Below, piece after piece: positions 2,334-53,826 of a stretch of 64,000 nucleotides of DNA. The stretch's first letter is position 1. The number at the start of each line of letters is the position of its first letter. The stretch is from positions 1-64,000 of the IMG/VR virus record IMGVR_UViG_3300028361_000012; one strand, 5' to 3'. The stretch comes from a virus. The position numbers were made by a program, and so were the translations under genes. Below the pieces are notes generated by a model, which saw nothing but the letters and a program-made list of their open reading frames with translations, searched no databases and was not told the DNA's origin.

Positions 2334-2960
2334 ATGAGGACTGTAATTATATATGTGTTGATTGACCCATTAACAAATGATGTTAAGTATGTTGGAAAAA
2401 CTACAAATATTGCAAAAAGATTAAATAGACATATAAATGAAAGCAAAAAATCAACTACATCACACAAGAAGGCTTGGATTAAAAGTCTTCTAAAAAGAGA
2501 TTTAGAACCAGCTATAGAAGTTATTGACGAGATTTTAGAAGAAGATTGGAGGTTTTGGGAGAGTTATTGGATTGAACAGTTTAAGTGCTGGGGATTTAAT
2601 TTGACCAATGAGACTTCTGGTGGAGATGGCGTAGATAAGGGAAATGTACCATGGAATAAAGGTGTTATTGGTTCTATTAAGTCAAACAAAACAACTTTTA
2701 AAAAGGGAAATGAAATCGGAAAAGAGACAAGAATAAAAAAAGGAGAAAGGTTAAGTCCTAAAACTGAATTTAAAAAAGGACAAATACCAGTAAATTCTAA
2801 AAAAGTCAATCAATACGATTTAGAAGGGAGTTTGATAAAAGAATTTAATAGCTATGGAGAGGCTGCAAGAAATATAGGCGTTAATACATCAGCAATCCAA
2901 AATTGTATAAGAAGAGGGACATTTAAGTGTAAAGGATATATATGGGAAGTAAAGGGGTAA
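2334..2960 (+). CDS. GIY-YIG homing endonuclease with NUMOD-type DNA-binding modules
   Basis: A free-standing homing endonuclease of 208 residues. The GIY-YIG core is at residues 4-25 (IIYVLIDP, then KYVGKT) with the family Arg in RLNRH and a Glu-containing segment (FWESYWIEQF) near residue 83. NUMOD3-like motifs (PWNKG, FKKG) occupy the middle, and a NUMOD1-like helix-turn-helix (SYGEAARNIGV) closes the C-terminus. It sits between a patatin-like relic (2251-2331) and patatin copy 2, whose ATG lies inside its last 19 bases in another frame. A TATTTAT box touches its start codon, so it appears to carry its own promoter. Confidence 0.9.
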   Translation: MRTVIIYVLIDPLTNDVKYVGKTTNIAKRLNRHINESKKSTTSHKKAWIKSLLKRDLEPAIEVIDEILEEDWRFWESYWIEQFKCWGFNLTNETSGGDGVDKGNVPWNKGVIGSIKSNKTTFKKGNEIGKETRIKKGERLSPKTEFKKGQIPVNSKKVNQYDLEGSLIKEFNSYGEAARNIGVNTSAIQNCIRRGTFKCKGYIWEVKG

Positions 2961-3880
2961 AAAAAAGAAAACGAGCTTTGTGTATTTCTGGTGGAGGGGC
3001 AAAAGGCGCTTGGGCTGGTGGAGTAATACAACATCTTCTCGAAGACCAAGACAAAGATTATGACCTTTACGTGGGAACATCAACAGGAAGTCTTCTTGCT
3101 CCATTGTCATCTATACGAGAATTAAGCATACTAAAAGAGGGATATACAAGCATTACAACTGAAGATATATTCTCAATAAACCCCTTTAACGAAGATGGCA
3201 GTGTTAGAAGGTGGAATGCAATCAAAAGGTTAATTACATCCAAAAAAACTATTGGAGAAACTGATAACTTAAGGAATTTAATAAAGAAACATTTTACTGA
3301 AAAACATTTTGAAAGACTTTATAAATCCGATAAAGAAGTTATCGCAGTGGTTTCAAACCTTACAGACAAAAGGGCTGAGTTCAAATCTTCAAACGATAAT
3401 TCGTATGAGGATTTCGTTGATTGGCTCTGGGCATCTTGTAATGCTCCAATATACACATCTATTTTAGAAAAAGACGGGAACCAATATGCTGATGGAGCAA
3501 TTCATCAACATATACCAATTCAAGTAGCTATTGAGAATGGGGCAACTGAAATTGATGTAATTGTGTTAAGCCCAGAAGGCTTTGGTGTTGTTAAGAGAGC
3601 TATGATTAATAATTTATTTCAATACTTTGTTAGGCTGATAGAGATTTTGATGAGAAAGATAGCTAAGGATAATATTGACCTTAATAAGCTTGAGTCACAT
3701 GGGAGAGAAATCTCAATAAATATTTATTACACACCATATGGATTGACAGAGAATTCTTTGATATTTGATAAAGAGCAAATGCTTAAGTGGTGGAAAGAAG
3801 GTTATATTAATGCAAAATCTGGAAATGTTAAAAAATATAAGATTACCAGGTCGAATGTATTCAAAGAGGTGGAAGAATAA
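2942..3880 (+). CDS. patatin-like phospholipase, copy 2
   Basis: The 312-residue product has all patatin hallmarks: CISGGGAKGAW (oxyanion loop, residues 14-24), GTSTG (nucleophile Ser, near residue 43) and YADGAI (catalytic Asp, near residue 183). The only ATG ahead of the oxyanion loop is at 2942, inside the 3' end of the GIY-YIG gene, so the two frames overlap by 19 bases. The first residues (MGSKGVKKRK) therefore appear to be borrowed from HEG sequence. It is more canonical at the active site than copy 1. Its substrate and timing are unknown. Envelope damage, virion entry and interference with host lipid signalling are all possible. Confidence 0.85.
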   Translation: MGSKGVKKRKRALCISGGGAKGAWAGGVIQHLLEDQDKDYDLYVGTSTGSLLAPLSSIRELSILKEGYTSITTEDIFSINPFNEDGSVRRWNAIKRLITSKKTIGETDNLRNLIKKHFTEKHFERLYKSDKEVIAVVSNLTDKRAEFKSSNDNSYEDFVDWLWASCNAPIYTSILEKDGNQYADGAIHQHIPIQVAIENGATEIDVIVLSPEGFGVVKRAMINNLFQYFVRLIEILMRKIAKDNIDLNKLESHGREISINIYYTPYGLTENSLIFDKEQMLKWWKEGYINAKSGNVKKYKITRSNVFKEVEE

Positions 3881-8404: not shown

Positions 8405-10606
8405 ATGTATATAGTATTTGATACCGAAACAACTGGTAAGGCAAAGAATTTTAGCGCACCAATTACTGATTTTAACAACTGGCCAAGAATGGTTCAGATT
8501 GCTTGGAAAATCTTTGATGCGAATGGTGTAGAGACAGATTCTCAGAATTTAATTATTAAACCTCAAGGGTTTAGGATTCCTGATGAAGCAATAGCGATTC
8601 ATAGGATTACAAACGAGAGAGCTAAAGAGGATGGAGTTCCTTTGAGGCAGGCGCTTGAAAAGTTTTCAGAAGCTGTAAAGAACAATAAGCATCTTATTGC
8701 TCACAACATTTCCTTTGATGAAAATGTAACAGGCTGTGAATTCCTTAGAGAGGGAATGTACAACTGCATTCCAGACATAAATCACATTGACACCATGAAG
8801 CTCACAACTGACTTCGTGGCAATTCCAAACAAAAGAGGTAGGAGTGGGATGAAATTTCCTTCTCAAACAGAACTTCACCAAAAATTATTTGACAAAGGAT
8901 TCGAAGATGCTCACGATGCACTTGCGGATGTTACTGCGCTTGCAAAATGTTTTTTCGAACTTCAAAGAATAGGCATCCTTGGATTCAAAGAAGAAGAGGG
9001 CGCAGAAGATTTAATGGATTCTCTTACTAAAGTTGCAGAAGAGAAACCTATGCAAGCGGGCGATTCAATCCGAGTAACTCCACTTGGTCTCCATACATTT
9101 CACTCTATTCTTGATGGAGCTGGTTCTGTAGACGAGTATATTAAGCTTGCAAAAGAGTATGGCCACACCTCAATGGCAATAACAGATAACTCAACATTAT
9201 CTGGTTCATTTGAATTCTTCAATAAATGTAAGTCAAAAGGGATTAAACCAGTTTTTGGTGTCGAGTCTTTCTTGAATGACAATATTGGAAAATTTGAAGA
9301 CAGAGAGCTTGAGGGAGATAATTATAAAATAAAGATTTTCATAAAAAATGAAATTGGATATAGAAATCTGAATCATTTGATATACCTCGCAAACACAGAG
9401 GGGTTATTTAAGAAAGAATCAAGAATAACTACAGAGTGGCTTTTGAAATATAAAGAGGGTTTAATAATATCTACCTCAGGTCTTGATAGTAAATTAGCAA
9501 ACCTGGTTCTTAAAGGAAAGGTTATTGACGCAGAGAACTATCTTAACATGCTTAGGAGCGAGTTTGGAGAAGATTTGATAGTGGAGTTTAAGTTTAGTAA
9601 GTTCGCCACTCAGAAGCAGTATAACAACTTCTTGATTAAAATGATGAGTAAGTATAAATTGCTTCCAGTAATGAGCAATGACACCTACTATCCAAGAAGA
9701 GAGGATTCAAAGCTTCAAGATGTAGTTACATCTATTAAGCAACATCGTATGCTTGCCTATTGTTCTCTGAAAGAAAACAGAGAGTTATACTACTTCAATA
9801 GCGATGACTATAGAGAAATGAACGAAAAGTATGGATTTAAGTATCCTGAAAAGTTTCTTGAACTTTGTATGAAAAATACAAACATTATAGCTGATAGGTG
9901 TAATTTTGAATTTGATACTGGTACTGAGAAATATCCAAGATATGAGCCAACTGAAAAAATAATAGAATATTTTGGCACAGATAAGCCAGAGGAGATTATT
10001 GTAAAACTTGCGTTTATTAAGTTAAAGCAAAAAGTTGAGATATATAAGAAAAATGGAATCGTTGAGATGACCGATGAAAAGGTTAATGAGTATGTTGACC
10101 GTCTTAATTATGAGATTAGTATTATTGAATCAAAGAAGATGCTTGATTACTTTCTTGTAAACTGGGAGATTATTAATTTCTACAGAAACGAAGGTCATGA
10201 CATTGGCCCAGCCAGAGGTTCTGCAGCAGGAAGTCTATTGTCGTGGTGTCTTGATATTACAAAGATTGACCCAATAAGGTTTAATCTTTATTTTGAGCGT
10301 TTCCTAAATCCAGAAAGAAACTGTTTAACATCAAACTGCAATGTCATGATGAAAGATGGCTCTTATAAGAACATCGTTGAAGTAGAGGTTGGAGACCCAG
10401 TTCAGACAGAACACGGACTTGGAACCTTGGTTCAAAAGCACGAGAGAGAGCTTAAGGAAAACGAGAATGTTTATGAAATTGAAACTGAAGATGGAGCTAT
10501 AGTTGAGTTGACTGGGTGCCATATTGTTCCTGTTTTTAGGGATGGCGAGAGAATTGAAGTTCGTGTAGATGGTATTATGGAGAGCGACCAATTGTTTGTG
10601 TTTTAA
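8405..10606 (+). CDS. dnaE: DNA polymerase III alpha, N-terminal half fused to split-intein N-part
   Basis: Residues 1-195 form a DEDDh 3'-5' exonuclease with intact motifs (FDTETTG, HNISFD, AHDALADV). Residues 222-330 are a PHP-like domain (LGLHTFHSILDGAGS, then SMAITDN) in which some metal ligands are altered. The palm begins in the last 150 extein residues (GPARGSAAGSLLSW, then ERFLNPERN). At Cys640 (base 10322) the protein turns into an intein: CLTSNCNVMMKDGS is block A and VELTGCHIVPV is the TxxH block B. The 94-residue intein N-part ends at a stop. The remaining polymerase is at 11740. Half-protein joining by trans-splicing is inferred. Transcription appears to start at the host-type promoter at 8328. 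Confidence 0.93.
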   Translation: MYIVFDTETTGKAKNFSAPITDFNNWPRMVQIAWKIFDANGVETDSQNLIIKPQGFRIPDEAIAIHRITNERAKEDGVPLRQALEKFSEAVKNNKHLIAHNISFDENVTGCEFLREGMYNCIPDINHIDTMKLTTDFVAIPNKRGRSGMKFPSQTELHQKLFDKGFEDAHDALADVTALAKCFFELQRIGILGFKEEEGAEDLMDSLTKVAEEKPMQAGDSIRVTPLGLHTFHSILDGAGSVDEYIKLAKEYGHTSMAITDNSTLSGSFEFFNKCKSKGIKPVFGVESFLNDNIGKFEDRELEGDNYKIKIFIKNEIGYRNLNHLIYLANTEGLFKKESRITTEWLLKYKEGLIISTSGLDSKLANLVLKGKVIDAENYLNMLRSEFGEDLIVEFKFSKFATQKQYNNFLIKMMSKYKLLPVMSNDTYYPRREDSKLQDVVTSIKQHRMLAYCSLKENRELYYFNSDDYREMNEKYGFKYPEKFLELCMKNTNIIADRCNFEFDTGTEKYPRYEPTEKIIEYFGTDKPEEIIVKLAFIKLKQKVEIYKKNGIVEMTDEKVNEYVDRLNYEISIIESKKMLDYFLVNWEIINFYRNEGHDIGPARGSAAGSLLSWCLDITKIDPIRFNLYFERFLNPERNCLTSNCNVMMKDGSYKNIVEVEVGDPVQTEHGLGTLVQKHERELKENENVYEIETEDGAIVELTGCHIVPVFRDGERIEVRVDGIMESDQLFVF

Positions 10607-10637
10607 AAATACAAATATCGTTTGAAGTTTTTATCTA

Positions 10638-10646
10638 TATTTATAG
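10638..10646 (+). promoter_or_regulatory. TATTTAT box, intein-linked HEG
   Basis: TATTTATAG lies 19 nt before the HEG ATG at 10664. It separates the two dnaE halves into different potential transcription units. Confidence 0.55.
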
Positions 10647-10663
10647 ATACAGATTTTATAATT

Positions 10664-11743
10664 ATGAAAAAAGAAGAGTTGTTAAATATTGAGTTCGATG
10701 GTCAGAGTGATTTAGTTGCTGGGTTGTGTGAGTTTTTTGACTTTAAAAAAGCTGATAATAACGAAATAGAAATATGGCCATATAAAAGTAAATTATCGGT
10801 TTCTATTGAAAATTTAATTGGAAAAGAATTGTACAATAAAGAAAGTTTTATCGGAATTGTTGAAGATTGCTATTTTGGAAAAGGACCAAGAGGACACAGT
10901 GCTGTTCTTATTAAGTGTGGAAACCAGGATTATTCATTAACTGAGTCAAAGGTTAAAATGTACAATAAGTTTTCCGAGAAAGATGAGCTAATAGACCTAC
11001 ACCCATCAAGAAAGGGTATTAAATTCTGGTCTAATGGACACGTATTATCTGAGAAAGATTATAAATCACTTTATTATAAGACTAAAGAGTATAGAAGTCA
11101 ATATGAAAAGTCTTTGAATAAAAATCTTGGAACAACTGGTCTTAAGGCACCAATTCAATATAAGAAGATTAAGGATAAGATTTCTAAGACCATGGATGAT
11201 AGGTATGGTGTGAGTTGGTTCTTGGAGCGTGGTTGTCATTATTCAGCTGTAACAATGACTATGCAGGATAAGTTTGGAGTAGATAATTTGTTTATGGATA
11301 AAGAGTGGCAAATGGAAAATGCTAAAAAAACAAATAAAAACTTAGGAGAATCCTCTAACTTGGAGAGGGAAATTATTTTAGAATTACAAAATTTAGGATT
11401 AAACGATTCTTATCATTATAATTCTGAATTTGGTCAAAAAGTTTTAATTGTAAACAAAAGTAAATTTTATAAACTTGATTATTATAATAATGAACACAAT
11501 ATAGCTATTGAAATTATGGGTGATTATTGGCATTGTAATCCAATGATTTATAGTCATGATTTTTATCATAAAAACAAAAAAAGATTGGCATCTGAGATTT
11601 GGAGAGATGATAGAAAAAGAAAGAATGAAATTATAAGTGTTATTAATTGTAGTTATATAGAAATTTGGGAAAAAGACTGGAAGGATAATAAAGAAAATGT
11701 TTTAGTATATATAAAAAGTCAAATAGAAGCAAGTAAATTATGA
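10664..11743 (+). CDS. Vsr-like (EDxHD-type) homing endonuclease inside the split-intein gap
   Basis: The best start is the ATG at 10664, because an in-frame TTG at 10622 lies inside the leader. The product is 359 residues. The nuclease domain is C-terminal: LEREIILELQNLG, then IAIEIMGDYWHCNP (about 279-292), a DDRKRKNEI segment and IEIWEKDW (about 331-340). This is the pattern of the very-short-patch-repair-like homing nucleases known from fractured genes. The first 230 residues probably bind DNA. The gene lies exactly between the intein halves and its stop overlaps the ATG of the intein C-part (ATGA). It is homologous in its catalytic part to the protein at 19109. Confidence 0.85.
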   Translation: MKKEELLNIEFDGQSDLVAGLCEFFDFKKADNNEIEIWPYKSKLSVSIENLIGKELYNKESFIGIVEDCYFGKGPRGHSAVLIKCGNQDYSLTESKVKMYNKFSEKDELIDLHPSRKGIKFWSNGHVLSEKDYKSLYYKTKEYRSQYEKSLNKNLGTTGLKAPIQYKKIKDKISKTMDDRYGVSWFLERGCHYSAVTMTMQDKFGVDNLFMDKEWQMENAKKTNKNLGESSNLEREIILELQNLGLNDSYHYNSEFGQKVLIVNKSKFYKLDYYNNEHNIAIEIMGDYWHCNPMIYSHDFYHKNKKRLASEIWRDDRKRKNEIISVINCSYIEIWEKDWKDNKENVLVYIKSQIEASKL

Positions 11744-14079
11744 GATTATCAAAAATAAAATCAATAAATAAAATTGATTATAAAAATAAGGTTTATGATT
11801 TATCTTTTGATAAAGATAATCTTTTTTACAGTTCAAGTAAAACTTTAGATGATTGCTATAACTCATTGATTTCAAGTGTTTTAATTCACAATTCTCCTCC
11901 CGATATTGATATTGATTTTATGACAGGTACAGATGATGTAACAAATCAATTCCTACAAGACAAGTATGGAAAAGAACGTGTTATGTCTGTTGCTACTTTT
12001 TCTACATTTTCTGAGAAGAATACAATTAAGGATGTTGTTCGTGCATATCGTGGAAGCGATGCTACTGGGTTTGATTCTGGAGTGTTTAAATTAACAAAGG
12101 AGATGCCGAACTTCTTAAATTACAACGACACTCTTAGGCATTGGTTTGAAACTTGGCCAGATAAACCAGAGTGTAGTCCAGAAGTTAGAAATTGGATTAG
12201 AGAGCCAAAAAATAAGGAGATGATTGAGACTGCTCTCCAGCTTCATGGAAACATTAGAGGTATTGGACAGCATGCTGCAGGAGTTGTAATTACACCAGGG
12301 TTATCTTGGGATTATATTCCAACCAATGTAATCACATCCAACGGAAGTGTTGTTACAGCGTTTCAGGAGGCGGATAAGTCTGGAAAAGACCTTTCAGCAC
12401 TTGGGATTCTAAAATTGGATAGATTAAAATTAGAAACCTTAAATGTAATTAAGGAAACTGTTGACATTGTAAAAAGAACAACGGGAGAAGATATTTCTCA
12501 AAAAGTTGATTACGTTGACCTTGAAGACCCAAAGTTATTTACAGAATTAAGGCTTGGTCTTAATCATGGGATATTTCAGTTTGAGAGTCATGGTATGAAC
12601 AATCTTATTAGAGGTATTGCAGTTGATAAATTTGAAGAACTTGTTGCTGCCAACGCACTGTATCGTCCAGGCCCAATGGGAATTGGCGCACACGAAGAGT
12701 TTATCGTAAACAAATTCAACCCAGAGAAGATTAAATATATCCACCCTGCGTTGAAGCCGATTCTTGGAGAAACGAATGGAGTACTTGTGTTTCAGGAACA
12801 ACTTATGTTTATTGCTGATAAGATTGGTGGAATGGGTCTTGGTAAAGGAGATATGCTTAGAAGGTATATGGATAAGGCATCTAAAATTATTGCAAGAAAT
12901 TCAGCGGGAGAGACGCTAACTGATACAGAGAAAAACGACAAGAACTGGAAAGGTTTCCAGCAGTATTGGAACATGTTCTTAGATGGGGCTGCAGCTCAAG
13001 GTTATGACAAAGGTGATGTAGATAAAATTAAAGATTGGGTAATTCAATACCTTGGATACTCATTCAATAAGTCTCATGCACTTTCATATAGTTATTTGGC
13101 GATGCAAACTTTGTATTTAAAACACTACTACCCAACCGAGTTTTATACCGCCCTTCTAAATCACCCTAAGTCTGGTAACAAAGAAAAACAGCAAGCTTGG
13201 ATTGGTTCTGCAATTGCTTCTGCGATGTCAAAAGGGATTGAGATAAAGATGCCATCAAGAAAGTCTGGATGGAGATGGACAATGACTGGTGAGCACGAAA
13301 TTTCTATGGGATTCTCTGGTATTAACGGATTGGGCCCAATTGCATACGAAGAGATGCTTGATTTGATTAAAGAAATAAAAGTCAAAGAAGGTCAGGAGAA
13401 AAAAACCCTTGAGACTGTGAGTATGAGTTTGTTCTTTAGATTGCCGTTTAGCAAGTTTAATAAAAGTGCTTTTGAAGCTTGCCTTAAAGCTGGCGTATTT
13501 GATGATTGGAGCGATTCAAGAGAACAGCTTGCTGACCTTAAGTCTAAGACAAAAAAGAAAAAGAAAGTAAACGCAAATCAAACTGTTTTGTTTGATATGA
13601 ATGACGAAGCTTTTGACATTCCAGTTAAAAAAGAAGAGAACAAATATCCTCCAACAAACTGGGCATCGAAAAGAACAGATTTCCTTGAGGTGTGTAATTT
13701 TGACCTTGAAAAAATAAAGTACATTCAGGACATAAAGGCTGATGTAAACAAGAGAGCTAAGAGAGATAAGCTTGTTGAGACAATTATTAATTTTGATGAT
13801 AATGATTTCTACATTTTTGTGGTAGATACCTTTAAGGTTTCTATGAGTAAGAATGGAAAAGAATATTTAACAATGAGAGTTGGTGATGGAATTAGTTTCA
13901 CAACACTTAGAGCTTTCGACCCAGTTGCGAAATCTCTACAACCACTCCTTGCTGCCAATGGCATTTATGTTGCTGAGTTTGAAAAGAACGAAAAAGGTTA
14001 TGTTAATTTTAAGAGAGGAACGAGAATCGTTCGAGTTGATAAAGATTTAAGTAAAAAAGAAGATGAAGCTAACAATTGA
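11740..14079 (+). CDS. dnaE: split-intein C-part fused to DNA polymerase III alpha C-terminal half
   Basis: Residues 1-51 are the intein C-part: KVYDLSFDKDNLFY is block F and VLIHN is block G ending in the splice Asn. The extein starts at Ser52 (base 11893) with SPPDIDIDF, which holds two catalytic Asp of the family C polymerase. The third Asp is probably in LKLDRLKLETL. A clamp-binding-like QTVLF is near residue 614, followed by an OB-like C-terminal domain. Splicing to the N-part would give about 1367 residues, a plausible length for an exonuclease-fused alpha subunit. The start ATG overlaps the HEG stop. The 3' end overlaps a relic start at 14063. Confidence 0.93.
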   Translation: MRLSKIKSINKIDYKNKVYDLSFDKDNLFYSSSKTLDDCYNSLISSVLIHNSPPDIDIDFMTGTDDVTNQFLQDKYGKERVMSVATFSTFSEKNTIKDVVRAYRGSDATGFDSGVFKLTKEMPNFLNYNDTLRHWFETWPDKPECSPEVRNWIREPKNKEMIETALQLHGNIRGIGQHAAGVVITPGLSWDYIPTNVITSNGSVVTAFQEADKSGKDLSALGILKLDRLKLETLNVIKETVDIVKRTTGEDISQKVDYVDLEDPKLFTELRLGLNHGIFQFESHGMNNLIRGIAVDKFEELVAANALYRPGPMGIGAHEEFIVNKFNPEKIKYIHPALKPILGETNGVLVFQEQLMFIADKIGGMGLGKGDMLRRYMDKASKIIARNSAGETLTDTEKNDKNWKGFQQYWNMFLDGAAAQGYDKGDVDKIKDWVIQYLGYSFNKSHALSYSYLAMQTLYLKHYYPTEFYTALLNHPKSGNKEKQQAWIGSAIASAMSKGIEIKMPSRKSGWRWTMTGEHEISMGFSGINGLGPIAYEEMLDLIKEIKVKEGQEKKTLETVSMSLFFRLPFSKFNKSAFEACLKAGVFDDWSDSREQLADLKSKTKKKKKVNANQTVLFDMNDEAFDIPVKKEENKYPPTNWASKRTDFLEVCNFDLEKIKYIQDIKADVNKRAKRDKLVETIINFDDNDFYIFVVDTFKVSMSKNGKEYLTMRVGDGISFTTLRAFDPVAKSLQPLLAANGIYVAEFEKNEKGYVNFKRGTRIVRVDKDLSKKEDEANN

Positions 14080-14141: not shown

Positions 14142-15110
14142 ATGAAAAACAAAAGATGGACAGAGCAGGAGGATTTTATTTTAAAAAACAATATAGAATC
14201 TCCAATTAAGTATTTAGCTGAATTAGTTGGAAGAACAATTCCCTCTGTAAAAAATAGAAAAAAAGCACTTGGAATAACAGAAGAAAATTTATGGTCAGAA
14301 ATGGAAGAGAATATTATAATAAAATACTATTCAAACTCTTCTTCTGAAAAATTATTGAAACTTTTGGAAAACAGAAGTTGGAGCTCTATTTTAGCAAAAG
14401 CTAAAAAATTAAAATTAAAAAGAGCAGAATACCAATATTCAACAATGAGAGACTCTAATGTTGAAATTCTATTGAATGAGAGTGTTAAAACATATTATTA
14501 CATAGGTCTATTATTTGCTGATGGATATTTTACAAATAAAAAGATACAACTGAATCAGTGTATGAAAAATAAGGAAGTTGTTATTGGTTTTGCTAATTAT
14601 ATTGGTTGTAAAAATATTAAACTATACGATGAAGTGAAAAAAGTAAATATATTAGGAGTTGATACAGTTAGTAATGGGAGCGCTATATGTTATTTAAAAG
14701 ATTCAAAAGTAATTCCTTTGATAAATAAAAAGTATGATATAAATTATAAAAAGGGAGAAAAAACTAAAACATATTTCCCGCCTTCTTTGAGTGTTTTTAA
14801 TAAAATGTCAGATGAAAATTTTTTAAGTTTTTTAATAGGATTCATTGATGGAGATGGTAGTTTATATTTAAGCAAGAAAAATTCGAGATGTATAACTATT
14901 ACTTCTCATGAAAATTGGAAGTTAATATTAAAATATTGGATAAAACGCTTAGAAGATATTTTTAATGTAACTTTGAGTAAAAAAGCTTTAAAACAAAAAG
15001 ATTCCTATTTTAGACTTAGAATATATAATCCAATTGTTATTGATTATTTAATTGGATTTATTAAGGAAAATAAGTTTATTTGTACACATAAATGGGATAA
15101 ATTTAATTGA
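14142..15110 (+). CDS. LAGLIDADG homing endonuclease with N-terminal Myb/GcrA-like helices
   Basis: The product has 322 residues. Two LAGLIDADG helices are visible: IGLLFADGYF (about 120-129) and LIGFIDGDGSLYL (about 232-244), each with the acidic residue that binds the catalytic metal, so it should act as a monomer. The N-terminus (RWTEQEDFILKNN and WSEMEENIIIKYY) contains two SANT/Myb-like helix-turn-helix segments. It splits the HNH gene from its old 5' end: the relic lies just upstream and the rebuilt gene starts 2 bases after its stop. It is AT-richer than dnaE and carries its own TATTTAT box. Confidence 0.92.
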   Translation: MKNKRWTEQEDFILKNNIESPIKYLAELVGRTIPSVKNRKKALGITEENLWSEMEENIIIKYYSNSSSEKLLKLLENRSWSSILAKAKKLKLKRAEYQYSTMRDSNVEILLNESVKTYYYIGLLFADGYFTNKKIQLNQCMKNKEVVIGFANYIGCKNIKLYDEVKKVNILGVDTVSNGSAICYLKDSKVIPLINKKYDINYKKGEKTKTYFPPSLSVFNKMSDENFLSFLIGFIDGDGSLYLSKKNSRCITITSHENWKLILKYWIKRLEDIFNVTLSKKALKQKDSYFRLRIYNPIVIDYLIGFIKENKFICTHKWDKFN

Positions 15111-18314: not shown

Positions 18315-19109
18315 ATGAATAATAAAAAGAAAATAGTAGAGGAATCTTTTAATAAAATGAAAACTTTATTAGAATCAAAAATTAATGAAGCACAGGTTGC
18401 TCCTGCAGCACCCGCTGCGCCTGCGCAAGCTCAAAAACCTGCTGTAGACCCACAGAGAGACCAAAAGATAGGTCAAAACATTGATGCAACTATGGACCAG
18501 GCAATGGCTAAGTTAGTACAAGGTCTTCCTTCTGTTCTTGCTAAGTTTGCAAAATCTGGAGGAGATAAGGATGGTGCATTGGATGCTCCAGGCGTTTATG
18601 ACAACAATGCTCAAGCGCAGCCAGCACAAACTGGGGCTCAACCAATTCAAGAAGGAATGATTAGTGAAATAACATTCAATGAGTCTATGTTCATGGGAGC
18701 AATAGGAGAAGGGTTAAATGAAGAAGACCTAAATGAAGGTGGTATTCTTGGTTTAGCTATGGCAGTTCCAGCTATCTTAAAGTATGGCGGAAAAGCTGCA
18801 GAATGGACAGGGAAGAAAATGAATTCACAGTGGCTTCAGAAGTGGGGTGGAAAAACAGCAAAGGCTGGAGAAAAAATACATCACAAGTATATTGCTATTA
18901 TAGAAAAGGCTATTGCTCCATTTATGCCTAATGCTGACAAGGCGCAAATTCACAAGGCTGCAAATGGTATTTTCATGGGAGGAGTTGCTATTATGTTCGC
19001 AGGCGGATTGGCGCACCCAGGTATTTTAACAGGAGCAAAAGGCGCAGAGCTTGGAGAGTTTAGTCTTGCAAATATAGGCAATATACTTCCTAAATTAGGA
19101 TTTGCTTAA
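18315..19109 (+). CDS. putative internal/virion protein with capsid-targeting-like N-terminus
   Basis: The ATG at 18315 is chosen because it follows the TATTTAT box and yields the shared N-terminal helix MNNKKKIVEESFNKMKTLLE ending in I-N-E at residue 25. The middle is an Ala/Pro/Gln-rich linker. The C-terminal half has hydrophobic helices (GILGLAMAVPAILKYGG; GIFMGGVAIMFAGGLAHPG) on either side of a basic stretch, which suggests membrane insertion or pore formation. The product is 264 residues. The stop overlaps the next ATG (TAATG). A DNA-ejection or head internal protein is inferred. No database family is claimed. Confidence 0.6.
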   Translation: MNNKKKIVEESFNKMKTLLESKINEAQVAPAAPAAPAQAQKPAVDPQRDQKIGQNIDATMDQAMAKLVQGLPSVLAKFAKSGGDKDGALDAPGVYDNNAQAQPAQTGAQPIQEGMISEITFNESMFMGAIGEGLNEEDLNEGGILGLAMAVPAILKYGGKAAEWTGKKMNSQWLQKWGGKTAKAGEKIHHKYIAIIEKAIAPFMPNADKAQIHKAANGIFMGGVAIMFAGGLAHPGILTGAKGAELGEFSLANIGNILPKLGFA

Positions 19110-19588
19110 TGGCTAAGAAAAGAAAGAAGTTGACATATGCTCAAATGGTCAAGAAGGCGATGGCAAAAGCCAGAAGGGAAGCAAGCCCTGAAGCTGCTAA
19201 GTTGATGAAAAAAAAGAAACTGGAGTCACAAGCCAAGAAAATGGCAAATAAAATGACGGCTCCTGAGAGAATTTTTTCTGATATGATGGAAGAGCTTGAC
19301 ATTAAATTTGAAACACAAAAAGTTCTTGGAAACAAGATATATGACTTTTACATACCATCAAAGAATATGATGGTTGAGGTTGATGGGGATTATTATCACG
19401 CAAACCCATTAATATACGAGTCAAAGGATTTGAATAAAATGCAAATTAGAAACGTAAAGAACGACAAGTTTAAAGACGTACTTGCAAAGGGAAATGGTTT
19501 TAGTATTGAGAGAGTGTGGGAGCATGACCTTAATAATGATTACAAAACACAAAGGAAGAGATTTAAAAAATTATTGAAAGATGAATAA
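19109..19588 (+). CDS. Vsr-like (EDxHD-type) endonuclease within the structural operon
   Basis: The 159-residue product has a basic N-terminal 50 residues and then a nuclease domain: PERIFSDMMEELDIKF, DFYIPSKNMMVEVDGDYYH (about 80-98), ANPLIY, a Lys/Asp segment and IERVWEHDL. It aligns with the catalytic part of the HEG at 10664: GDY[WY]HxNPxIY, then I[E]xxWExD. Unlike that HEG it has no TATTTAT box and is embedded by overlaps (TAATG upstream, 8 bases downstream), so it looks domesticated. A role in resolving or trimming DNA during packaging is possible. Confidence 0.75.
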   Translation: MAKKRKKLTYAQMVKKAMAKARREASPEAAKLMKKKKLESQAKKMANKMTAPERIFSDMMEELDIKFETQKVLGNKIYDFYIPSKNMMVEVDGDYYHANPLIYESKDLNKMQIRNVKNDKFKDVLAKGNGFSIERVWEHDLNNDYKTQRKRFKKLLKDE

Positions 19589-41416: not shown

Positions 41417-42310
41417 ATGAATAGAAAAAACAGAAATTATTGGACAAAAGAAAAATGTGAAAAAGAGGCGTTGAAGTATAAATTAAGGTCTAAATTTAAA
41501 ACAAACTCAGGAGGAGCTTATAACGCTTCTAATAAAAATGGTTGGTTGAATGAAATTTGTTCTCACATGTCAGTTGTTGGCAATAAATACAGAAGACTTG
41601 TTTATGTATATGAATTTGGCGATAAATCTGTATATGTAGGGTTAACTTATAATATTGAAGAAAGAGACAACAAACACAGGAGAGATGGTAGAAGTAGGGT
41701 TTTTAAGTACATAAAAAAAACTGGAATGAATCCAATATTATCTTATTCAGATTATATAGACGTTGAAGATGCTAAAATTTTGGAGGGAGATAAAATCGAG
41801 TTTTATAAAAAAAATGGATATAATGTTTTAAATTTAGCAGATGCTGGAGCTATTGGTGGAGGAAATTTGAAGTGGACAAAAGAAAAGTGTATAGAAGAGT
41901 CTATAAATTATAAAAAAAGAACTATATTCGCAAAAGAGAGCGGTAGCGCATATAATTCTGCAAGAAAAAATGGATGGCTCGATGATGTTTGTGTTCATAT
42001 GAATAAAATCATCAAAAAACACAAAGGTTATTGGACGAAAGATAAGTGCAAAAAAGAGGCCTTGAAGTATAAAGCAAAGAAAGAGTTGTACAAAAAAAGC
42101 CCAGGAGCATATATGTCAATGTTTAAAAATAATTGGCTTGATGAGCTTTGTCCTCACATGAAGACAAAAAAACCAAATGGATATTGGACCATAGAAAGAT
42201 GTTTTGTTGAAGCTGAAAAATTTGAAACAAAAGGAGAGTTTCAAAAAAATAGCGAAAGTGCTTATAAAGCCTCTTTAAGTAATGGTTGGATAAATAAATT
42301 TTTTAAATAA
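41417..42310 (+). CDS. GIY-YIG endonuclease embedded in four DNA-binding-like repeats
   Basis: The 297-residue product has a GIY-YIG-like core at about 57-140: VYVYEFGDKSVYVGLT, then RDNKHRR and a later Glu in LEGDKIEFY. Around it are four copies of a 45-residue repeat of the form YWTKEKCxxEAxKY, then AYxxSxxNGWLDE and CxHM (starting near residues 9, 154, 209 and 255). The nuclease sits between copies 1 and 2. The repeats are probably minor-groove or zinc-assisted DNA-binding modules. It separates the uvsX-like gene from the 5' nuclease gene and is likely mobile. Confidence 0.82.
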   Translation: MNRKNRNYWTKEKCEKEALKYKLRSKFKTNSGGAYNASNKNGWLNEICSHMSVVGNKYRRLVYVYEFGDKSVYVGLTYNIEERDNKHRRDGRSRVFKYIKKTGMNPILSYSDYIDVEDAKILEGDKIEFYKKNGYNVLNLADAGAIGGGNLKWTKEKCIEESINYKKRTIFAKESGSAYNSARKNGWLDDVCVHMNKIIKKHKGYWTKDKCKKEALKYKAKKELYKKSPGAYMSMFKNNWLDELCPHMKTKKPNGYWTIERCFVEAEKFETKGEFQKNSESAYKASLSNGWINKFFK

Positions 42311-52989: not shown

Positions 52990-53826
52990 ATGAAAAAAGT
53001 TAGAACAAGAAAGTGTAAACTACATCCAGATGGAGGTAGGATAATTATCCCAAACAATGGAACCAGATGTAAGATATGTTACGAAAAATCAAAAAAAGAT
53101 AGGGTTGAGAAAAATATAAACAAAGCCATTGAAGTCCATAGCGGCAGATATGACTATTCTTTGGTTTGGTATGAAAAAGTTAAAGATAAGGCTAAGATAA
53201 TTTGTAAAAAACATGGAGTTTTTGAGCAATGTATATGGAATCATTTAAAAGGTATAGGATGTCCTTGTTGTGCAAAAGAAGAGAAAACAGACGATAAATC
53301 TGATGCTATAAAAAGGTTTGCAGAAGTACATGGAGATAATTATAATTATTCATTAGTTGAATATGTTGGTGATAAAACTAAAGTTAAAATAATTTGTGAA
53401 AATCATGGCGTTTTTGAACAGTCTCCAGGGAAACATAAAGCTGGACAAGGGTGTCCAAGGTGTAGATTGTCTCACGGAGAAAGGGAGGTCAAAAGATTCT
53501 TGGATAACAAAAGGGTTTTATATGAATCTCAAAAGAAATTTGATGAATGTAAGAATATTAACTACCTTCCATTTGACTTTTACCTTCCAAATTATGATAT
53601 GTGCATTGAATATGATGGAGAGCAGCATTTTGAGCCCAGATTCACAATTTCAAAAAAGAGTGATTCGAACTTTAAAAAGATTAAAGAAAATGATTCTATA
53701 AAAAATGAATTTTGCAAAAAAACAAATAAAAAGCTTTTAAGAATACCATATTATGATAAGAAAAATATTGAAGCGATTTTAGAAAAAGAAATTTTAAAAT
53801 GGGAAAAAAGAAAGAAATTACAATAG
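52990..53826 (+). CDS. DUF723-repeat endonuclease (PD-(D/E)XK-like), homing type
   Basis: The 278-residue product has an N-terminal zinc ribbon (CKLH, CKIC), then two DUF723-like repeats (HSGRYDYSLVWY with GIGCPCC; HGDNYNYSLVEY with GQGCPRC). The C-terminal nuclease domain has SHGEREVKRFLDNKRV, LPFDFYLPNYDMCIEYDGEQ and KNEFCKKTNKKLLRIPYYDK, the layout of a PD-(D/E)XK/DUF2726-type phage endonuclease. Its last 28 bases overlap the start of the UvrD-like helicase, whose relic N-terminus appears upstream. It has its own TATTTAT box. Confidence 0.85.
   Translation: MKKVRTRKCKLHPDGGRIIIPNNGTRCKICYEKSKKDRVEKNINKAIEVHSGRYDYSLVWYEKVKDKAKIICKKHGVFEQCIWNHLKGIGCPCCAKEEKTDDKSDAIKRFAEVHGDNYNYSLVEYVGDKTKVKIICENHGVFEQSPGKHKAGQGCPRCRLSHGEREVKRFLDNKRVLYESQKKFDECKNINYLPFDFYLPNYDMCIEYDGEQHFEPRFTISKKSDSNFKKIKENDSIKNEFCKKTNKKLLRIPYYDKKNIEAILEKEILKWEKRKKLQ

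Follow-up and report, generated by a model that had tools for sequence, protein, structure and literature searches.

In a 64,000-nucleotide stretch of viral DNA (positions 1 to 64,000 of IMG/VR record IMGVR_UViG_3300028361_000012, hereafter the window), the dnaE gene for the alpha subunit of DNA polymerase III (Pol III) is divided between two open reading frames (ORFs), each of which carries one half of an intein at the break, and a free-standing nuclease gene lies between them. Sequence comparison indicates that this is very probably a mobile split-intein and homing-endonuclease element residing in an essential phage gene. Considering the relatives as well, it is probable that three sites of this essential gene have been invaded by split inteins that are unlike one another and come with different nucleases, and that the replicative polymerase can be made as up to four polypeptides joined by up to three trans-splicing reactions; the series of alleles would then reveal a route from a continuous to a split intein, and also that the split state persists once the nuclease is gone. 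The features of the window element are as follows.

8405-10321, + strand: dnaE N-extein, 639 residues, ending in ERFLNPERN (ORF, Pfam and NCBIfam Pol III alpha)
10322-10603, + strand: split-intein N-half (IntN), 94 residues, Cys640 first, block B TGCH (TxxH) (Pfam, PDB profile match, alignment A3)
10604-10606, + strand: stop codon TAA closing the first polypeptide (sequence)
10664-11743, + strand: putative free-standing homing-endonuclease gene, 359 residues (ORF, Pfam, family alignment)
11354-11740, + strand: nuclease domain (alignment A5, AlphaFold2 model, Foldseek)
11740-11892, + strand: split-intein C-half (IntC), 51 residues, block F VYDLSFDKDNLFY, block G VLIHN (Pfam Intein_splicing, alignment A4)
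11893-14079, + strand: dnaE C-extein, 728 residues, Ser+1 first (Pfam, alignment to Taq DnaE)

The first ORF (8405-10606, 733 residues) passes from ERFLNPERN directly into the 94-residue intein half that begins at Cys640, and the second (11740-14079, 779 residues) opens with 51 residues up to VLIHN and continues as SPPDIDIDF. Both junctions had been proposed in an earlier, sequence-only reading of this DNA and are confirmed at base level. Pfam places a DEDD exonuclease (residues 3-183), a PHP domain (residues 229-395) and the first part of the Pol III alpha domain in the N-extein, and the PDIDIDF catalytic motif, the fingers and HHH in the C-extein. When the halves are joined, the PHP, Pol III alpha and finger domains and the PDxDxDF motif of a bacterial-type DnaE are all present. 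The reading frame is broken between residues 639 and 640 of the joined protein (N639 and S640), and in both ORFs the PF07733 match breaks off exactly at profile position 99, which means that no polymerase residue is missing or duplicated. The first residue of the C-extein aligns with Ser460 of Taq DnaE; by this alignment three residues (S, P, P) separate the break from the first Asp of PDIDIDF, not two as had been stated. Since the C-part carries the catalytic Asp motif and the N-part the GPARGSAAG region together with the beginning of PF07733, neither half is likely to be functional alone. The exonuclease (8405-8953) is fused ahead of the PHP domain; related dnaE genes, for example that of locus L012, begin near PHP without it.

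Pfam supports a Hint or intein assignment for both 10322-10606 and 11740-11892, as the sequence-only reading had supposed. The N-half matches Hint (E = 1.5e-7), Hom_end_hint (2.1e-5) and positions 41-94 of Intein_splicing, and the C-half matches positions 120-146 of Intein_splicing (E = 0.005); these matches lie below the curated cut-offs, except that of Hint with the isolated N-half (31.7 versus 29.7 bits). When compared with the PDB, a profile of the N-half found the hedgehog Hint domain (E = 1.5e-4) and, weakly, PI-SceI and gp41-1. The splicing residues are all present in the window (C640, TGCH and IHN/S, with the slash marking the junction), and Cys1 and TxxH are invariant among the N-halves of five loci (alignment A3). 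The two Hint halves sit on separate polypeptides, each fused to one half of the same host protein. Ratios of nonsynonymous to synonymous change (pN/pS) between the window and the related locus L041 are 0.12 for IntN, 0.18 for the nuclease and 0.22 for IntC, which indicates purifying selection in a comparison where synonymous sites are near saturation. From the conserved residues, this selection and the evidence of mobility described below, we infer trans-splicing of the two halves and cleavage of the empty site by the nuclease.

The nuclease gene most likely begins at the ATG at 10664 (the mechanical ORF start is the TTG at 10622), and its stop codon overlaps the ATG of the C-half as ATGA (11740-11743). 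The middle part of the protein matches DUF7487 weakly, and the C-terminal part is Vsr/EDxHD-like. In this region D, E, GDxxH and WExD, a candidate catalytic set, are invariant across 12 site-B and site-C nucleases (alignment A5; site B is that of the window and site C is described below). An AlphaFold2 model of the domain from 12 sequences has a predicted local distance difference test score (pLDDT) of 94.6 and a predicted template-modelling score (pTM) of 0.86; a model of the whole nuclease from four sequences has a pLDDT of 50.5. A Foldseek search of the PDB with the domain model placed Vsr (1CW0) second, with probability 1.00, E = 0.015 and a TM score of 0.59, and I-Bth0305I (3R3P) ninth, with probability 0.69. 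The predicted fold gives moderate support to an EDxHD/Vsr-like homing endonuclease.

We assembled a family of about 80 related dnaE loci from IMG/VR (numbered with the prefix L) using scans with dnaE, nuclease and intein queries. Most are empty at site B, with more than 20 showing an uninterrupted site; the sequence-only reading had proposed looking for such genes in related phages, and many were found. Among them is L038, the closest empty relative, in which dnaE is 91% identical to that of the window over the whole protein (88% for the N-extein and 93% for the C-extein). A split intein with a nuclease occupies site B in the window lineage and in L041, L149, L078/L080, L087, L063/L064, L059, L091 and its copies, L098 and L102. 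About a dozen further distinct family loci share this type of arrangement, with Cys1, the C-terminal HN and Ser+1 retained, and every site-B locus has the stop codon behind the N-half. Over the shared element, three contigs from other IMG datasets are 100% identical to the window. Chance and assembly error are excluded by the recurrence of the same two halves in further IMG/VR loci, by the more than 20 empty loci and by the three identical contigs. The nuclease frame is broken at site B of L068, where a remnant of the nuclease domain is left and the C-half survives, and the nuclease ORF of L138 has in-frame stops. No continuous (cis) intein was seen at site B among the family loci. The site-B insert of L059 also holds a GmrSD-like (type IV restriction-like) ORF (L059:5889-7748) beside the homing nuclease, which is cargo inside the homing element.

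On a dnaE extein tree of 43 rows, the presence of the site-B element requires at least nine changes, and every carrier stands next to an empty relative. The window and L078 are 51% identical in their exteins, compared with 75.5% in IntN, 76.5% in IntC and 57% in the nuclease. In approximately unbiased (AU) tests the element data reject the dnaE grouping of L078 with L102 (p-AU = 0.0018), and the dnaE data reject the element grouping of the window with L041 and L078 (p-AU = 0.0005); these values are somewhat optimistic, since the groups were picked after the first comparisons had been seen. The sporadic occurrence, the mutually rejecting trees and the purifying selection on the parts of the element point to a mobile 'fractured gene' element, for which homing by the nuclease would be the natural explanation of mobility. 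A scan of genome contigs returned one close match, a short contig in a metagenome-assembled genome named Deltaproteobacteria; as this is possibly a phage contig, it gives no reliable host information.

Three intein sites are used in this dnaE family: A (GPARG/S), B and C (SFNK/SHS). Sites A, in the N-extein, and C, in the C-extein, are empty in the window phage, and the Pfam intein profile found no further intein in its own 195-kb record. Site A holds a continuous mini-intein in L098, a split intein with a nuclease in L067, L163 and L138, and a split intein without a nuclease in L082/L089/L094. In L068 the split intein at site A is accompanied by nuclease remnants, including a 75-residue ORF that resembles the C-terminus of the L163 nuclease. 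Site C holds a continuous mini-intein in L096, L098 and L102, a split intein with a nuclease in L086, L087 and L091, and a split intein with a decayed nuclease in L068. The continuous (131-133 residues) and split (94 + 37-40 residues) forms at site C can be aligned over their full length, with one break point. Split inteins at site C are also present in some more distant phage DnaE loci (about 28% identical), and the continuous intein of L219, about 270 residues long, contains an HNH-like stretch. Apparent split site-C inteins in the distant loci L222, L224, L229, L234 and L238 start with Ser, not Cys.

In L068 sites A, B and C are all split, which divides the polymerase into four polypeptides. 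This four-piece gene is known from one contig; an assembly error is argued against by the recurrence of each junction type in other contigs. Sites A and B are both split in L138, whose contig ends before C, and sites B and C in L087 and L091, with the L091 type present in several contigs; in L098 site B is split, with continuous inteins at A and C. The piece between A and B in L068 and L138 has 164-166 residues and consists of the A C-half, about 34 polymerase residues and the B N-half. The three N-halves of L068 are 24-29% identical to one another, as expected if these inteins must not cross-react. The contigs of L068, L091 and L138 (G001, G003 and G002, respectively) contain further intein-like matches outside dnaE, some of them above the Pfam cut-off.

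These alleles suggest a homing cycle. The polymerase halves would be translated separately, after which the intein halves would associate and splice in trans, using Cys1 as nucleophile, Asn cyclisation and Ser+1, to restore an intact alpha subunit. In co-infecting phages whose dnaE is uninterrupted, the Vsr-like nuclease would cut this gene at or close to the PERN/SPPD junction, and recombination repair would copy the whole intein-nuclease cassette into the cut gene. Site B would thus pass from empty, through split with an intact nuclease (the window, L041, L149, L078, L087 and others), to split with the nuclease broken or missing (L068), with parallel stages at sites A and C. After nuclease decay the gene seems to remain split because polymerase function by then depends on trans-splicing. 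As continuous mini-inteins occur at sites A and C, the sequences are compatible with a split form that arose when a stop-nuclease-start cassette entered a continuous intein.

Several observations weigh against a mobile, trans-splicing element. The usual block-F His is Asn in the window lineage (it is His in L063, L098 and L102), and the stretch between blocks F and G of the site-B C-half is unusually long. The element tree has only two starred branches, no close copy of the element occurs in any phage of the annotated collection, and no co-conversion tract is visible in the flanking exons, where the sequences are too diverged to reveal one. The Foldseek E-values for the nuclease domain are modest, the best (0.0076) belonging to a mitoribosomal protein; since mitoribosomal proteins interleave in the list of fold matches, the Vsr/EDxHD label is supported moderately, not strongly. 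Pfam and PDB sequence searches gave no Vsr sequence-family match for the nuclease, those of the PDB returning chance matches only.

If the inteins no longer spliced, the polymerase halves could form a non-covalent two-subunit enzyme bearing intein remnants. Split enzymes can assemble non-covalently in engineered cases, and the replacement of the block-F His in the window lineage would agree with such a loss. However, IntN and IntC are under purifying selection and keep Cys1, TxxH, HN and Ser+1, and at a junction three residues from the first Asp of PDIDIDF an unspliced intein would adjoin the active site; we consider this explanation highly improbable. It is also very unlikely that the nuclease has ceased to be an active homing enzyme and is kept only for translational coupling of the C-half. 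Its stop codon and the C-half ATG do overlap or nearly touch at most site-B loci, as the ATGA of the window illustrates, but its catalytic-type residues are invariant across the family, the element is clearly mobile and the C-half of L068 persists despite a broken nuclease frame.

A self-splicing intron with a nuclease gene, in which the intein-like ends are fortuitous, deserves almost no credence: EDxHD/Vsr-like nucleases occur in phage introns too (PMC12350094), but here the coding frame enters Hint domains under selection on both sides and the exteins join exactly at the protein level. Group I and group II introns were rejected, there being no Rfam match in the window. All of the sequences are metagenomic, which might suggest an assembly chimera of an intein-bearing gene with unrelated sequence. 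The identical structure in the three 100% identical contigs, and in relatives at 45-85% identity, in practice refutes this and leaves it a negligible probability. In our view, the most consistent interpretation is the mobile split-intein and homing-endonuclease element.

The nuclease gene is preceded by a leader that contains TATTTATA, a motif which also precedes other nuclease-type genes of the window.

10616-10663, + strand: nuclease leader with TATTTATA at 10638-10645, late-promoter-like, inside a predicted stem-loop at about 10623-10658
2334-2960, 10664-11743, 14142-15110, 41417-42310 and 52990-53826, in the window: nuclease-type genes preceded by TATTTATA

Neither this conserved leader nor the additional intein sites of the relatives had been noted in the sequence-only reading. 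The motif occurs 22 times in the window (7.2 expected) and is located upstream of nuclease genes and many structural genes, not upstream of dnaE. The five nuclease-type genes that carry it just before the start comprise two GIY-YIG, one Vsr-like, one LAGLIDADG and one DUF723/DUF4379. It is probably a late promoter; a T4-style late promoter is plausible given its enrichment and placement and given that the phage encodes a T4-like terminase, portal and UvsX-like protein. If so, the two polymerase halves would be under different promoters. The leader palindrome, with consensus AAATCTTTATCTATATTTATAGATAAAGATTT, is conserved with a preferred register and is recognisable at nine site-B loci, being less exact in L059 and L091. 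Its hairpin showed no covariation beyond that of shuffles and was set aside as a conserved RNA structure; the palindrome may still represent a T4-like late-promoter or hairpin control.

Between 14064 and 15544 of the window, the gene after dnaE, of HNH type, is interrupted in its 5' part by a LAGLIDADG nuclease gene (14142-15110). The start of the HNH-type gene, MKLTIELVPQTAW, is severed at 14064 and a recoded copy, LTIELVPASSFYNNVRSNVS, begins past the LAGLIDADG gene, so that the target gene is whole again but its 5' end has diverged; it is uninterrupted in L038, L039 and L042. A second protein of the superfamily of the Vsr-like nuclease (DUF559) is encoded at 19109-19588. Empty relatives have apparent counterparts some 5 kb downstream of their dnaE, and this is probably a resident gene related to the homing enzymes. 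Patatin-like phospholipase genes (1155-2195 and 2942-3880) flank a GIY-YIG nuclease gene with NUMOD1, which suggests a duplication around the nuclease insertion.

These loci bear on the way in which continuous inteins come to be split and on why they then remain so. The dnaE family offers uninterrupted, continuous mini-intein, split with nuclease and split without nuclease alleles at single sites of one gene, and the break points between continuous and split alleles can be aligned to the residue. It also provides natural groups of two or three mutually dissimilar split inteins that have to serve a single protein without cross-reacting, and these are directly useful for multi-fragment protein assembly.

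Fractured genes are reportedly enzyme genes, of eight types and mainly from phages, that are broken by a split intein with a free-standing and often Vsr-related nuclease between the halves. The likeness to this layout pointed out in the sequence-only reading is borne out in the split intein, the free-standing Vsr/EDxHD-like nuclease between the halves, the split essential polymerase gene and the phage context. The window shares with the published cases (Dassa et al., 2009) the free-standing endonuclease gene between intein-bearing gene halves; added here are the context of a phage genome, empty and decayed alleles, tests of lateral transfer and relatives with two or three breaks. The cyanobacterial Ssp and Npu inteins are likewise split inteins of DnaE in which the alpha subunit is restored by trans-splicing, as predicted here. 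The insertion sites differ, and in the window the halves are adjacent with a nuclease gene between them, unlike the cyanobacterial halves, which lie far from each other and lack a nuclease. Site C of the relatives is four residues downstream of the cyanobacterial site (AEY/CFNKSH), and for the site-C mini-intein of L098 gp41-1 is a better match (5e-10) than any of the deposited DnaE inteins (best 1.5e-7). Trichodesmium dnaE contains several inteins, one of them split.

The inteins of this family resemble gp41-1, NrdJ-1 and related natural split inteins of metagenomic or phage type, with PDB matches to gp41-1 and NrdJ-1, but their host genes differ and the site-B C-half has the long stretch between blocks F and G. 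In Pseudomonas phage MIJ3, PolB is split by an intein with an HNH nuclease ORF between the parts (PMC6892783); this is likewise a phage replicative polymerase split around a nuclease ORF, but the polymerase is of family B, the nuclease is HNH and there is a single break. DNA polymerase genes of gut jumbo phages are also split by endonuclease sequences (PMC12363816). The nuclease domain is similar in predicted fold to Vsr and to I-Bth0305I of the EDxHD group, but at about 14% sequence identity, and the N-terminal part of the window nuclease has the weak DUF7487 match; phage intron nucleases of similar architecture combine DNA-binding repeats with an EDxHD/Vsr-like domain (PMC12350094). No report of two or three split inteins in a single natural gene was found in the literature searched, the coverage of which was incomplete. 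The arrangement in the window is of the known 'fractured gene' kind, and the multi-piece polymerase together with its allele series is the novel part.
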